Notes under the pieces: model-generated
Databases searched by the model: none
Told to the model about the DNA's origin: nothing
What the model saw: the letters and a program-made list of their open reading frames with translations, nothing else
DNA from: Enterococcus haemoperoxidus ATCC BAA-382
Lineage (GTDB): Bacteria; Bacillota; Bacilli; Lactobacillales; Enterococcaceae
Reading direction: 5' to 3'
Assembly (NCBI RefSeq): GCF_000407165.1
Contig: NZ_KE136480.1
Location: 1,116,001-1,180,000 of the forward strand
DNA: 64,000 nucleotides
Shown here: in pieces, positions 47,800-54,215 of the stretch
How positions within the stretch are numbered: the stretch's first letter is position 1
How the letters are laid out: every line of letters begins with the position of its first letter
Translations under genes and position numbers: made by a program

Positions 47800-47841
47800 G
47801 GTTAGCGCTAAGCATGAAAGTTTAGCGTTAACCTTATTTTT
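47800..47841. terminator. Terminator between convergent genes
   Basis: Stem GGTTAGCGCTAA / TTAGCGTTAACC with one G-U pair and a T-rich tail on the plus strand. It overlaps the 3' end of the sce7725-like gene. Confidence 0.8.
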
Positions 47842-48712
47842 TATTGACTTGATTCGTTTTATCAAGATACCGTGACATAAGTTCCATATGATGCATCACA
47901 GCCGCTTTTCTCATAACGCCCATTCCTGGGAATTTATTTTTTGCAACAGCCTCAAGCAGTAACTCGATTCCCAACGTCATTTCTTTTCCGCATAATTTAT
48001 CTGTCCAATCGTTTATCGCATTCATAAGCTCGAAAAATTTATCTTTTTGAGTAGGGGAATCCTCACCTGAAATAAAATGATGGATCCGCAATTGATTACT
48101 GTCAAAATAAACAAGATGCAAGCTCAAGTGTTTTGAAGGATAGCTATGTTCATAGTAAACACGGCTATCAATAGAGAAATCACTAAATCCGATAAAACCA
48201 CTTTTTTGAAAGGTCAAATGAGTATCTGAAAAAAATTCATCCTGACATTCTTGATAAAAACTGGATTTAGGAAGTCGGGTAAAAACATCTTGTGAAAGAA
48301 TTTTCTCCCCTTTAACTTTTTGCAGCAGACGGAATTCTTTGGGGATGAGGACTTTTGTTTGATTTGCTTGCCAGTCGCTTTCTAGTGCAGGTGTTGAATT
48401 TCCAATCACAAATAATTCCGGTTCTTCGCTCAATGTTTCGATAGGCTGTTCAACGATCACTGCTTTTTTTAAGGATAATGCGTTTAGATAAAGGAGTCCG
48501 TCTTCAGTCAAAAAATCACCAGCTTGAGGGTTTTGAATAAGATAAAAAGGCTGATTTTCTTTTTGAAACAAGTGAATGAATTTTTTTAGTGCATTGGAAT
48601 TTTTGACGGGTTCGATGATCGGGAGAATCTGAGAAGACAAGCGTTTTTGTTCTACTAATGTTGTCAAAGCGAACAAATCAAACTGCTTGCCGCGAAAATA
48701 AGGATAATACAT
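47834..48712 (-). CDS. sce7725-family-like protein, partner of the upstream nuclease
   Basis: A 292-residue soluble protein. The N-terminus YYPYFRGKQFDLFALTTL and the following LPIIEPVK match my recollection of the sce7725 family, an uncharacterised group encoded next to nuclease-like sce7726 proteins. The fold appears to be an alpha/beta barrel (repeated strand-helix units: PFYLIQNP, LFVIGNS, TKVLIP, FIGFSDFS). Its ATG overlaps the stop of the nuclease gene by one base, so the two are translationally coupled. A possible SOS box lies before the pair. No catalytic residues can be assigned. Confidence 0.7.
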   Translation of the reverse strand: MYYPYFRGKQFDLFALTTLVEQKRLSSQILPIIEPVKNSNALKKFIHLFQKENQPFYLIQNPQAGDFLTEDGLLYLNALSLKKAVIVEQPIETLSEEPELFVIGNSTPALESDWQANQTKVLIPKEFRLLQKVKGEKILSQDVFTRLPKSSFYQECQDEFFSDTHLTFQKSGFIGFSDFSIDSRVYYEHSYPSKHLSLHLVYFDSNQLRIHHFISGEDSPTQKDKFFELMNAINDWTDKLCGKEMTLGIELLLEAVAKNKFPGMGVMRKAAVMHHMELMSRYLDKTNQVNKK

Positions 48713-49383
48713 TATTCTTCCTCCAAAAGGCGCTGTTCCAATTCAAAATAAGCCTCACGTGTTGCGTCCAATTCGTTCTTTAAGGCTTCAACAGCTTGAT
48801 TACAAATATCTTCAGCAAAGCGATCATAAAAATTGACTCCGCCGCCAAATAGATCATAATCCGGTTGTCTTTTCTTCAACTCTTTATAGAGCTGATCCGT
48901 TGAAAAGACACGTAAGCCACGTGCAGTTTGTTTGGCTTTACCGACTTCTCGAGCCTGTGCTGTGATCAAACGGAAAAGCAATTCTTGTTCATTGACTAAA
49001 AGCTCTTGTTTTTGCGGCTTTTTTTCTATTGTAAAGTAACCCGGCAGCATTTGGTTTTCTGTAGAAAGATACTGATGATAAACCATAGCGCCGATATGAC
49101 TGGGGATTTCTTCTTTTATTTTTTCAAAAAGAGCAACTGGTAACACAAAATAATTATAATTTCCGATAAAGGAAAGCTTTGCCTTGGAACGAAAATCAGC
49201 TTTACTTGCCTTCAGCTCATAACAACGCCACTCAAATTGATTCTCAACAGTCAAGCGACAGCTTAAGGTATCAACAATACCTTGATCCTCTGGCATTGTT
49301 ACTTCTTCGACCACAACATCTCCGTTTTCTCGACAGTAATAATATAAAACTTCTTCCATTTGGGTCGTTAATGACGTTTTCAT
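48712..49383 (-). CDS. PD-(D/E)XK nuclease-like protein of the sce7725 cassette
   Basis: A 223-residue protein. The core resembles a PD-(D/E)XK nuclease: an early Glu (VVVEEVTMPEDQGIVDTLSCRL, Asp near 38), the strand RCYELKASKADFRSKAK near 53-69 containing ExK, and YNYFVLP near 76. The ELKxSKADFRSxxK pattern is like MmcB-type predicted DNA-repair endonucleases. A C-terminal helical tail (about 180-223) is very acidic. ATG 49383 follows AAGGAG. It is the first gene of a two-gene operon under a LexA-like box, suggesting a DNA damage or defence role. Confidence 0.7.
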   Translation of the reverse strand: MKTSLTTQMEEVLYYYCRENGDVVVEEVTMPEDQGIVDTLSCRLTVENQFEWRCYELKASKADFRSKAKLSFIGNYNYFVLPVALFEKIKEEIPSHIGAMVYHQYLSTENQMLPGYFTIEKKPQKQELLVNEQELLFRLITAQAREVGKAKQTARGLRVFSTDQLYKELKKRQPDYDLFGGGVNFYDRFAEDICNQAVEALKNELDATREAYFELEQRLLEEE

Positions 49384-49751
49384 GTTTAACTCCTTTTTTC
49401 TTTTATACTACTATAAAACGTACGTTCGTAAAAATAAAGTGTTTTTTCATTTTTTATTATAATTTAAAAAAAGGTAATTAATTTGTTGATGGAGAATAGT
49501 AGTTTAAGAAGTGCTGGTAATATCCATTAAAAGATATATTTTTTAAATATTTACAAGAATTTATTTTCATAAATAGTCCTATTTTTTTTGTAAGAAAAAT
49601 CAGATTTAAGTTAGATATAATAGCGGTTTTACTAGAGATAACAGCAGATATGTTTTTATTTTTTGTTAAAATATAAAAAAATAATCATAATAAAGTTTAA
49701 AAAAGTATAATATATTATTATATGAAAAAATTAAGATGAAGGAGTTCGTTC
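49384..49751. other. AT-rich intergenic region between nuclease and adhesin genes
   Basis: A 368-bp divergent gap. The nuclease side holds the SOS-like box. On the adhesin side TATAAT at 49706-49711 is a possible -10 box without a good -35, and a GAAGGAG site precedes the adhesin ATG. No open frame or strong hairpin is seen. Confidence 0.5.
49415..49428 (-). promoter_or_regulatory. LexA/DinR-like SOS box before the nuclease operon
   Basis: On the minus strand CGAACGTACGTTTT matches 13 of 14 positions of the Firmicute DinR/LexA consensus CGAACRNRYGTTYG. It lies about 35 bp before the nuclease start and between or overlapping the candidate -35 and -10 elements (TTTACG, TATAGT/TATAAA), a position suited to repression. 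Confidence 0.6.
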
Positions 49752-52700
49752 ATGAAAAGAAGAAAATTACATATCTTGATGCTTGCGGTACTACTCACAC
49801 AGAGTTTTGGTTCAACCGTAAGTGCTTTTGCAACAACGACCACGAATATAGATGGAAATTCCCAAAGTGAACTGTCAGGTGACACACCAGTAGAAGCAAC
49901 TTCTGTAACTGACTTATCAAGTGATGGAATGAAACAATCGTCGGAAAGCCAAAATACAAAAACAAGTGAAGGGGATGGCTCGGGAACAAGCAATCCTTTA
50001 ACAGGAGATTCTGTTGGTGGGATAGAGCAGGCAACTACAGAAAGCTTACCAACGCCTGAAACAAAAACTGCAGAGACAAATATGGTGATTGAAGATGAGA
50101 TTTTAGCAAACATGACGCTTACAGATATGGCGGGGACTGAATACAATCAGACAACTGTCACCAGACTGCTGAATTCAACACCTGTAACAGCAAAGCTTAA
50201 TTTTGTGATAGAAGATAAAGACTATGCACCAGGCTCAGTGTATAAAATGTCATTACCTGAGCATTTAGGGTATTCAGACGTTAGTGGTGAAGTAGCCAAT
50301 GTTGGTGCTAATTGGTCAGTTGATGCGCAAAGCAAAACATTGACGATCACATTTAATCAACGAATTACGGAAACGCAGTTTAATTTAGATTTGAAGAGTT
50401 ACGTGTTTACAAATGCTGAACCATTAGTAACCATTAAAACGCCAGGTCAAAAAACAAATCAATATAATTTTGATTTGTATGAAGAAGTAGCACCTATCAA
50501 TTATGAAGAAACGACTAACCAGTACGGAATCAAAGGAACTATTTATTATAACTTGGATAGATCATTAGCTGGTAGTCAGACATTAGAATTAATAATGTCT
50601 GAAACACCCGGAGCAAAATTTTATAATACTTCTAAAGAACCAATCAATGTTTTCTCCTATGATGTGGATATCACAGGAAATGTGATCCCAGATTCAAAAC
50701 AACTCTTAGAAAAGGATAAAGATTATACAGTCAATGAAGACGACACCTATCGCGGAGCAGTCACGATTACAAGTATGGATCAACAAAAAGCATACGCTTT
50801 ATCCATTGATCGTGCGTTAGCGTTAGAGAGCGTTTCAAAGTATTCCTATAGTTTTTACAATCAATATCCAACGACTAAATTAGGATCTGTTAGTTTAAAT
50901 CGTTCATCTGCACAATATGGCGGAATTGAATTTACAGCAAAAACAAGTAAAGATCAAAAATCTGTAAAAGAAGCCAATTTAGGCATGCTACAAGGTGCTA
51001 ATTTCCAAGAGAAAGGAAATTATTATGTCTATATTTACGAACTCCCTACGCAAACTAAAGTAGGAGAACAAATCATTTTAGAAAGTAAAAATGGACAAAA
51101 AATCACTGATTACAAGCTTTCTGCTTATGATAAAGAGTACAAAGCGGTTCCGATGAATGATTTTTTTGATATAAAACAAGAAGAGAATAAATTAATTTTA
51201 ACGGCAACTAAAGACAGTGTGCTAAAAATAAAAGCGGATAAGTTGATCATTCCTTTTGACCAAAAAGACATTGATATTGCTGTTAGTACACCTGTTGTCA
51301 ATGGCGGCAAAGAAATAATGCTGGTTTCTGATCAATACCTTCAGCCAATCTCCATCATCAATCCCAACAATGTAGAAACAGCTTGGGGAAACTATGATAG
51401 AAACGGCGCCTACTCTGGTGATACAACAATTGCAATCGAAGGAAGCGATAAAAATCCTGTAAAGAACGCAACAATCAAAATTGAACACCCAAACTATTTA
51501 CAGTTAAGAGCACCTAAAGGGGAGTACGACTATTACAAACTAGACAAAGATTACACGATAACGGCAGTTGAAGGCGGCTCTCTTATTAAGTTTACAACGC
51601 CTGTCACTCGTTCTTTCAATCTAGATTTAGGTTTTAATTATATCCCAGATAGTCTTGAAAAAAGTAAGAGTATCCCTGTTGATACCCTTGCTGTGACACT
51701 AAGTGCAGATGACTATGAAGCAGTGGAAACAACCGTTAGAACAGGTAGAAAACAGTACTCAGAGCGAACGCTCCAAGCTAGCAAAAATCAATTTTTAGTA
51801 AACGCAAGAAATGATTCATTTGACGCGTTGAGTGTCACAACGAAAATTCCAGCTGGAGTAGATGTCATTTTTGATATTTATGATGTTTCAAATGACCAAG
51901 TGGAATCAATTTATCCCCAGTATTGGGATCGTGGGTACTACTTTGATAAACCTTTAGCACCGACTAGCGCAGCTTATCCGAAAATTACATTCGACGAAAC
52001 TGCAAATAGTTATAAATTTGATTTTGGTAAAACCTCAAAACGTTATCTTATTGAATACAAGTACGCCAATGGCTGGATCGATACAAAGACGATCAACGTG
52101 ACTGGAAGTGCTGCTGAGCCATTATATGGTGATCAGATCATGTCAACATCAGTATCAGTAAACAACGAAGGAGCAGAAATCTTATCTGCCACTCAAACTA
52201 GCCATGAATCTTTGAAAAACGTAACAAAAAATGAAGTCAAAACCAAAAATATCAATAGCAGAACACGCAGTGTTAAAAATCCGACCTTTGATATTAAAAC
52301 GAAAGGAAATACAAATGCTGGAATCGATTTAAATTCAATTGTGATCGATGGTGTTCCAAAAGATTCGTATACAATCAAGCAAACGGCTACAGGCGCTCAA
52401 ATTATTTTTAAAGAGTATACGTTAACTGAAAATATCACAATTACTTACAATACGATTTCTAAAAATGCAGGACAAATCTCTACCGAAACCATTATTAGTG
52501 CAGAGAATTTAGAACAAATGACAGAAGCTCGCAGAACAGCTACAACAACAGCTCTTGTTTTAAGGTTCTCTGATGGAGATGCTGAAGGAGTCGTTTATTT
52601 GGCTCAAGCGCAATTTCACGCGTATAATGAAAACGACCCAACAATAACTATTCCAAATGTCTCTTTTGAACTAGTGGATAATGTCACCGATAATCGTACG

Positions 52701-54215
52701 GGATTTACCACAGATGAGAAAGGTGAATATCACTTTGACGCGATCATGTCAGGAGAATATACATTAAGAGCAACGAGTATCCCAGCAGGGTATACGATTG
52801 AAAAAGAATATATCAACGGAAAAGTGCTTAAATTGACGAAGGGGATAAATCAGATCGGCGTTCCTCTTGCAGAAAAAAGGGTTGACCAAACAAGTATCAG
52901 CGTAAAAGATTCAACCATTTATGTAGGAGCAAGTTGGAAGCCACAAGATAACTTTATCGAAGCCACCGATATAGATGGAAATCCAGTTATGTTCGATCAA
53001 ATAACTGTAAATGGAGCAGTAGATACCACAAAAGTCGGTGATTATGAGATTATATATCATAATAAAAACAAAGAAGCGAAAGCAACCGTTTCTGTCATTG
53101 CAAATCAGGAGACGTTAAAAGTCAAAGATTCAACGATCTATGTAGGTGATTCATGGAAAGCCGCAGATAACTTTGAGTCAGCGACCGATCAAAATGGGAA
53201 AACTATCCTGTTTGATGAGATAAAAACTTCTGGAACCGTTGATACAACAAAAGAAGGAATCTATGAAGTAATTTATCACTTTGAAGGACAAACAGAGACT
53301 GCTAAAATCACTGTTTTAACAAACGAAACGACCGTTCGCGGAAAAGATTCAACCATTTCAGTCGGTACAAACTGGACGCCAGCAGATAATTTTGTGGAGG
53401 CAAAGGACAAAACAGGAAAACCTGTTGCTTTTGATCAAATAACTGTAACAGGAACTGTCGACACAAGTAAGGTAGGAAAGTATACAGTCACATACGAAAA
53501 CCAAGGTCAAAAAGATCAGGTCATCGTTCAAGTTGTCTCTACACAAAAAACACTTGCTGTCAGAGATTCTGTTATCTATGTGGGTGATACATGGGAAGCT
53601 GTCGATAATTTTGTATCAGCGACAGATGCTGCAGGCAATGATGTTTCAATCCAAGACATTACAGTAACAGGATCTGTAGATACAACTCAAGCAGGAGTCT
53701 ATGAAGTTGTTTATGGAAACGACACCTTAAAAGAAACGGCCAAAATCACTGTAAAAGCCGATCAATCAACTTTGATCGTAAAAGATTCCACTATTTATGT
53801 CGGTGATGATTGGAAAAGTGCAGATAATTTCGTGTCAGCAACTGATCGAGATGGCCAAGCAATTTCTTTTGAAAAAGTAGAAGTAACCGGAAGCGTTGAA
53901 ACAAAGGAAAAAGGGAAACAACAAGTATCCTACAAGGTTCAAACAGCGCAACAATCTGAACCAAGTAAAGCTAAAAAAACGGCAAAAACGGATAAACAAC
54001 TGACTGCTACCGCAACAATCACAGTCTTAGAAAAAAATGTACCAAAGCCAAATCAAACAAATAAGAATCAACCCCATATTTCAAAACCAGACAAACAAGG
54101 GAACTATCCTAAAACTGGTGAAAAAATCAATTATTCTTTCAGTTTGATTGGGCTGCTCGTTGTAATGGTCACAATAGTTAGCGTGATCCGAATAAGAAAA
54201 CGAAGAACCGATTAA
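49752..54215 (+). CDS. YPKTG-anchored surface adhesin with Ig-like repeats
   Basis: A 1487-residue wall-anchored protein. Order: signal peptide (1-27, ending VSAFA), a Ser/Thr-rich stretch (30-110), a long beta-rich region with several adhesin-like domains (about 115-960), one prealbumin-like domain (about 965-1040, VSFELVDNVTDNRTGFTTDEKGEY), and five bacterial Ig-like group 3 repeats of about 73-75 residues (1045-1410, recurring KDSTIYVGxxWxxxDNF). A Lys/Gln/Asn-rich linker leads to sorting signal YPKTG (1452-1456), a membrane helix and RKRR tail. ATG 49752 follows GAAGGAG. The downstream Mga-type regulator may control it. The ligand is unknown. Confidence 0.9.
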   Translation: MKRRKLHILMLAVLLTQSFGSTVSAFATTTTNIDGNSQSELSGDTPVEATSVTDLSSDGMKQSSESQNTKTSEGDGSGTSNPLTGDSVGGIEQATTESLPTPETKTAETNMVIEDEILANMTLTDMAGTEYNQTTVTRLLNSTPVTAKLNFVIEDKDYAPGSVYKMSLPEHLGYSDVSGEVANVGANWSVDAQSKTLTITFNQRITETQFNLDLKSYVFTNAEPLVTIKTPGQKTNQYNFDLYEEVAPINYEETTNQYGIKGTIYYNLDRSLAGSQTLELIMSETPGAKFYNTSKEPINVFSYDVDITGNVIPDSKQLLEKDKDYTVNEDDTYRGAVTITSMDQQKAYALSIDRALALESVSKYSYSFYNQYPTTKLGSVSLNRSSAQYGGIEFTAKTSKDQKSVKEANLGMLQGANFQEKGNYYVYIYELPTQTKVGEQIILESKNGQKITDYKLSAYDKEYKAVPMNDFFDIKQEENKLILTATKDSVLKIKADKLIIPFDQKDIDIAVSTPVVNGGKEIMLVSDQYLQPISIINPNNVETAWGNYDRNGAYSGDTTIAIEGSDKNPVKNATIKIEHPNYLQLRAPKGEYDYYKLDKDYTITAVEGGSLIKFTTPVTRSFNLDLGFNYIPDSLEKSKSIPVDTLAVTLSADDYEAVETTVRTGRKQYSERTLQASKNQFLVNARNDSFDALSVTTKIPAGVDVIFDIYDVSNDQVESIYPQYWDRGYYFDKPLAPTSAAYPKITFDETANSYKFDFGKTSKRYLIEYKYANGWIDTKTINVTGSAAEPLYGDQIMSTSVSVNNEGAEILSATQTSHESLKNVTKNEVKTKNINSRTRSVKNPTFDIKTKGNTNAGIDLNSIVIDGVPKDSYTIKQTATGAQIIFKEYTLTENITITYNTISKNAGQISTETIISAENLEQMTEARRTATTTALVLRFSDGDAEGVVYLAQAQFHAYNENDPTITIPNVSFELVDNVTDNRTGFTTDEKGEYHFDAIMSGEYTLRATSIPAGYTIEKEYINGKVLKLTKGINQIGVPLAEKRVDQTSISVKDSTIYVGASWKPQDNFIEATDIDGNPVMFDQITVNGAVDTTKVGDYEIIYHNKNKEAKATVSVIANQETLKVKDSTIYVGDSWKAADNFESATDQNGKTILFDEIKTSGTVDTTKEGIYEVIYHFEGQTETAKITVLTNETTVRGKDSTISVGTNWTPADNFVEAKDKTGKPVAFDQITVTGTVDTSKVGKYTVTYENQGQKDQVIVQVVSTQKTLAVRDSVIYVGDTWEAVDNFVSATDAAGNDVSIQDITVTGSVDTTQAGVYEVVYGNDTLKETAKITVKADQSTLIVKDSTIYVGDDWKSADNFVSATDRDGQAISFEKVEVTGSVETKEKGKQQVSYKVQTAQQSEPSKAKKTAKTDKQLTATATITVLEKNVPKPNQTNKNQPHISKPDKQGNYPKTGEKINYSFSLIGLLVVMVTIVSVIRIRKRRTD
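52889..53985 (+). repeat. Five Ig-like (Big_3) coding repeats
   Basis: Five protein repeats of about 73-75 residues sharing VKDSTIYVG, DNF.(S/E)A.D and VDTT..G.YEV.Y. They are divergent at DNA level, unlike the Cna_B units of the giant adhesin, and so look old. Confidence 0.8.

Follow-up and report, generated by a model that had tools for sequence, protein, structure and literature searches.

An MmcB-like PD-(D/E)XK gene and an sce7725 gene as a candidate LexA-controlled pair in Enterococcaceae

Two described systems stand closest to the locus considered here. Caulobacter MmcB is under SOS control, according to the excerpt of PMC9578287 available to us, and sce7725 genes elsewhere belong to an sce7726-sce7725-RES cassette whose RES proteins use up or modify nicotinamide adenine dinucleotide (NAD), as stated in the accessible portion of PMC12457610. 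Our locus lies in Enterococcus haemoperoxidus ATCC BAA-382 (genome of two contigs, 3.58 Mb), within a stretch of 64,000 nucleotides that we call the window (contig NZ_KE136480.1, positions 1,116,001 to 1,180,000), and joins an MmcB-like PD-(D/E)XK gene (gene 1) to an sce7725 gene (gene 2) behind a LexA-type box. We put at roughly 0.5 the probability, judged from sequence comparisons, that this pair is a LexA-repressed two-gene DNA-damage operon of Enterococcaceae, in which gene 1 would cut damaged or stalled DNA with the sce7725 protein as its partner; the pair may be an undescribed part of the enterococcal DNA-damage response. As far as the excerpts from the open-licence literature reach, mentions of sce7725 and sce7726 yield a gene list and a proteomic correlation, and no function; among the matches listed from that literature, we found no description of the enterococcal pair.

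An earlier, sequence-only reading of this DNA had proposed a damage-inducible nuclease translationally coupled to an sce7725-like protein. The two open reading frames (ORF1 and ORF2, our genes 1 and 2) do lie as it described, coupled by TAATG with a single base in common, and its ELKASKADFRS segment is located in ORF1. The features of the locus, in window coordinates, are as follows.

48712-49383, minus strand: gene 1 (ORF1), 223 amino acids, an MmcB-like PD-(D/E)XK protein
47834-48712, minus strand: gene 2 (ORF2), 292 amino acids, sce7725 family (NF033831), with a barrel-like model
48710-48714, minus strand: TAATG, stop of gene 1 and start of gene 2, overlapping by 1 base
49390-49395, minus strand: AAGGAG, probable ribosome-binding site for gene 1 (by eye)
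49415-49428, minus strand: LexA-type box CGAACGTACGTTTT, 14 bases, at -45 to -32 relative to the gene 1 start codon
49410-49415, minus strand: TATAGT, -10-like, sharing the last base of the box
49433-49438, minus strand: TTTATT, weak -35 candidate with 17-base-pair spacing to TATAGT, read by eye

The box CGAACGTACGTTTT sits exactly where the earlier reading had placed it and agrees with the consensus CGAACRNRYGTTYG at 13 of 14 positions. Our scans used a relaxed consensus ending in K, which was picked after the window box was known and on which that box scores 14/14. With this pattern, a box of at least 13/14 occurs within 150 bases in 22 of 26 pair promoters versus 5 of 1804 control segments (150 base pairs each, from 11 enterococcal and tetragenococcal loci), so that the box is indeed kept upstream of orthologous pairs; with the strict consensus the figures are 21/26 and 2/1804. 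An alignment of 17 of the 26 promoters (L041 and L049 are among the nine omitted) has the box and the -10 as its most conserved block, 0.97 versus 0.67. Two promoter layouts are seen, and the position of the box varies from -26 to -101: in L051-L053 and on an E. faecium plasmid (L099) it lies near the start codon, at -26 to -31 versus the usual position of about -45, and is still kept. Loci outside the 26-promoter set score 13/14 (L069), 12/14 (L071) and 11/14 (L070), with 13/14 each for L099 and for a wastewater record, L100. As a positive control, recA was examined in 30 Enterococcaceae genomes, which include the 26 pair genomes; a box of at least 13/14 was found within 300 bases in 29 of the 30. 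The window's own genome also has boxes with at most one mismatch upstream of recA, lexA, uvrB, a umuC-type polymerase, tag and rarA (names assigned by eye); many of the other boxes examined there fall within coding frames. By these sequence counts the box exceeds chance across genomes, though it is unconvincing in a single genome.

A gene 1 followed immediately by a same-strand sce7725 is present in 26 of the 37 Enterococcaceae genomes searched, the window's own included, and in 18 of 22 genomes of the window's genus; gene 1 was not found in any of 23 genomes that represent the order's other families, and its named relatives come from Enterococcus and Tetragenococcus. Solo relatives, which are the only form (and a shorter one) in two further genomes (G006 and G023) and occur alongside the pair in three, were excluded from these counts. 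With the shorter solo relatives set aside as a different group, sce7725 is linked to gene 1 in 31 of 31 full-length orthologues, window counted; the barrel-like partner that had been suggested as obligate is, to that extent, a constant one. The surroundings of the pair vary: among 13 named-collection loci, the surface-protein neighbour of the window recurs in six and the membrane-protein neighbour in seven (L065 ends early at a contig end). Since the neighbours differ while the box is retained, pair and box behave as a unit. The E. faecium plasmid, which is conjugative, carries the pair mostly amid metabolic and transport genes.

Two further observations concern these surroundings. The divergent neighbour in the window (49752-54215, plus strand) encodes a surface-protein-like product of 1487 amino acids that carries DSTIYVG-type repeat units and, at its C-terminus, a sorting-type motif, both read by eye. 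The wastewater record L100 (OR848224.1), whose label as a Listeria phage is unverified, has a pair and box resembling those of the E. faecium plasmid. This DNA may come from an enterococcus; its compared stretch is not identical to that of the plasmid.

Gene 2 matches the sce7725 model NF033831 at 3.6e-86 (289.7 bits; cut-off, 60), far above what its assignment to that family requires, and its barrel-like model bears conserved polar residues. In gene 1, D38, E56 and K58 are invariant in alignments of 20 and of 19 rows, and E27 is invariant too; the conserved D and ExK support, at the level of sequence, the earlier view of it as a PD-(D/E)XK-like protein. The best fold match of the gene 1 model is SPO1766 (3dnx), which we take to be an MmcB-like structure of PF06319, and the aligned segment bears the same D...ExK...ADF pattern. 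Two of 10 solo homologues scanned pass the PF06319 cut-off of 22 bits (L104, 26.5 bits; L147, 22.5 bits) and four more score below it; these two match gene 1 at 1.4e-35 (profile) and 2e-21, respectively. Window gene 1 also matches phrog_2776 at 2.5e-23, and its relatives appear in 54 phage records (E of about 1e-18 to 2e-21 in the rows listed after H1). As a separate observation, a single viral protein clearly matches the gene 2 model in fold, an uncharacterised one from Gordonia phage Powerball (1.9e-7).

From these data we propose the following sequence of events. LexA on the box, between the -35 candidate and the -10, would hold the operon off, as its conservation and position suggest; upon DNA damage, RecA would trigger LexA cleavage, and both proteins would be produced jointly through coupled translation. 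The gene 1 product may then cut DNA at damaged or stalled structures, akin to the role proposed for MmcB when Caulobacter resists mitomycin C and cisplatin, while gene 2 would supply a dedicated partner that binds, activates or restrains the nuclease, or processes its product. Repair ranks first on three counts: MmcB, the spread of the pair through its genus (18/22) and the unremarkable flanks.

Several observations weigh against this proposal, the first group of them regulatory. Within the window alone the box is not above chance (17 matches with at most two mismatches; 27 expected), and in the genome alone such boxes are no commoner than the reversed control pattern (80 versus 101 matches, allowing one mismatch). 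Such counts would be expected if the box were a chance match or the site of another regulator, leaving the operon outside SOS control; we regard that as highly improbable, given a box that is kept in 22/26 promoters at varying distance and in two layouts, and given the recA control. Among the 26 promoters, L041 and L049 have no box and L054 has a doubtful 12/14 (L053 also has 12/14, at the position used by its relatives); LexA control is therefore not obligatory. The earlier interpretation as a whole is partly borne out: the SOS regulation that it put forward has comparative support in the conserved box and the recA boxes, and neither of the refuting outcomes it named that sequences could reveal, a box missing from orthologous loci or a lack of conserved ExK residues, was observed. 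Eleven of the 37 Enterococcaceae genomes lack the pair, which is therefore dispensable, and we know of no function for sce7725.

Boxes elsewhere in the same genome, read by eye, offer further SOS candidates: between rarA-like and 3-methyladenine-glycosylase-like genes (L013, G000:C1:583948), upstream of a tag-like glycosylase (L088, G000:C2:1029839) and upstream of a radical-SAM-like gene (L003, G000:C1:1581397). Two adjoining boxes lie between apt-like and hemolysin-III-like genes (L002 1474-1514, G000:C1:1351419-1351459); no frame of at least 80 amino acids begins within 250 bases downstream of them.

The second group of contrary observations concerns the identity of gene 1. No Pfam model matches it at E up to 1, and PF06319 in particular finds no match in the window's own genome. 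Among 20 family members the MmcB model matches one (the solo L056, 0.19), fewer than the 10 weakly matched by the sce7726 model NF033832; the MmcB link therefore rests on intermediates and fold. Moreover, the homologues that do score with the MmcB model come from genes of a phage or prophage type that could serve another role. Gene 1 could instead be a diverged sce7726 that is not MmcB-like, with no exchange of partner and only RES lost, an account of ancestry that is compatible with any function. We consider it unlikely. The 10 NF033832 matches comprise eight pair members (0.024-0.1; 12.5-14.6 bits) and two solo forms, the best being L056 (1.7e-4, 21.5 bits), and several run colinearly; compared by hhalign, the two alignments reach E 4e-4, yet a probability of just 34%; and gene 1 occupies the same operon slot. 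These scores, however, are far under the 70-bit cut-off, and the window protein itself has no NF033832 hit at E up to 1. The solo phage proteins are nearer to gene 1, at the E values given above, and the two solo homologues above the Pfam cut-off, together with the SPO1766 fold, point to MmcB; the two families may be mere distant kin. L056 itself, a solo prophage-type gene in genome G023, matches both models weakly and is a possible bridge between them.

The cassette from which sce7725 is otherwise known introduces another possibility. Among the 299 class and 398 phylum genomes sampled, 10 of 10 intact sce7725 loci outside Enterococcaceae are ordered sce7726, sce7725, RES (in L111, RES spans two frames), and the same order is seen on plasmids of Moraxella, Shinella and Rhizobium, which are three of 10 non-enterococcal plasmid records found. 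The sce7726 label derives from the family model for two loci, from record annotation for the plasmids and elsewhere from motif and position; that of RES derives from Pfam for three loci, from annotation for the plasmids and elsewhere from motif and likeness. This three-gene arrangement, with its gene of an NAD-consuming toxin family, was observed in Bacillota and Pseudomonadota (L092-L094, L106-L115), and has the appearance of a toxin or defence module in its own right. A LexA-type box of at least 13/14 was found in none of 13 cassettes examined.

It is possible, therefore, that the enterococcal pair is an SOS-triggered phage defence: infection or prophage induction would damage DNA, LexA would fall, and the nuclease pair would attack foreign or damaged DNA or kill the cell, with an sce7725 drawn from a defence-type cassette. 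We rank this second, and hold it doubtful, because of the RES cassette relatives, with their NAD-directed proteins (PMC12457610, in the portion cited above) and plasmid copies, and because sce7726 matches the PADLOC model PDLC02989 'cll' (1.2e-21 and 4.4e-12 for the two proteins scanned). That model comes without a description, and the literature searched yielded nothing on it. The pair on the E. faecium plasmid and a weak PADLOC hit of gene 1 from L052 (PDC-M13C, 0.015) point the same way. Against this, PADLOC 2.0.0 yields no family at E up to 1 for either window protein; a search of 30 Enterococcaceae genomes found RES (PF08808) in none of them, with two positives among 14 control genomes; no RES gene follows the window pair, where the neighbour is a convergent membrane-protein gene; the pair is present in most genomes of the genus; no defence genes were recognised by eye in the flanks of seven other loci; and phages themselves carry gene 1 relatives. 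The phage-defence or abortive-infection role raised by the sequence-only reading thus found no direct support.

The fixed order of adjoining or overlapping genes and their 31/31 linkage would also suit a toxin-antitoxin-like pair, in which free gene 1 nuclease harms the cell, sce7725 holds it back and growth arrest is tied to SOS. The divergence of the two proteins is matched (r 0.965 over 20 loci, a value inflated by shared phylogeny). Nevertheless, this is quite improbable in our estimation: sizes of 223 and 292 amino acids and a nuclease-first order are atypical of the usual type II modules, no known toxin-antitoxin family is matched by the window proteins, and gene 1 relatives do without sce7725 in eight solo loci and in at least 52 of the 54 phage records.

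Those solo loci (four in Enterococcaceae, four in other Bacilli) have no adjoining sce7725, and the scored upstream regions of the four enterococcal ones have no box; sce7725 occurs in just three phage records, at most two of them among the 54. In unrooted trees, 20 pair-type gene 1 proteins split from 11 solo forms (branch 98/96), and 20 enterococcal sce7725 proteins split from 11 cassette forms, from eight of the 10 Bacillota loci and the three plasmids (branch 96/94); the tool flagged L054 and several solo forms as long branches, and the trees, being unrooted, give no direction of exchange. Genome G110 carries a RES cassette (L093) and a solo phage-type MmcB-like gene (L104) on different contigs. 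We tentatively suggest, with less confidence than we place in a repair operon, that sce7725 acts as an enzymatic partner which can be combined with different PD-(D/E)XK proteins: in Enterococcaceae a mobile cassette, elsewhere carrying RES, would have lost that gene, swapped its nuclease for a phage-type MmcB-like one and come under LexA. A module presumed to serve defence or toxicity would thereby have become an SOS arm carried on the chromosome.

Annotations of sce7725 and sce7726 extend over distantly related bacteria. The enterococcal version, which has a repair-type nuclease and apparently stands under an SOS switch, points to DNA damage as a definite condition for testing sce7725, and the contrast with the RES cassette lets its contribution be asked in each setting; the damage response of enterococci gains one more operon that is a candidate for repair or defence. 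Compared with Caulobacter MmcB (PF06319, DNA repair protein MmcB-like), gene 1 likewise has the PD-(D/E)XK motif and matches the SPO1766 fold, and SOS control would be in common (PMC9578287, as excerpted); it differs in being missed by the Pfam model, in its long C-terminal helical extension and in its translationally coupled sce7725 partner. The MmcB-like genes that stand solo in phages and prophages of Bacillota (phrog_2776, with annotations as endonuclease, MmcB-like DNA repair protein or hypothetical) belong to the same protein family as gene 1. The sce7726-sce7725-RES cassette (NF033832, NF033831, PF08808) likewise has sce7725 directly after a same-strand PD-(D/E)XK-like gene, whereas the enterococcal pair has a first gene of another family, no RES, and a LexA-type box.
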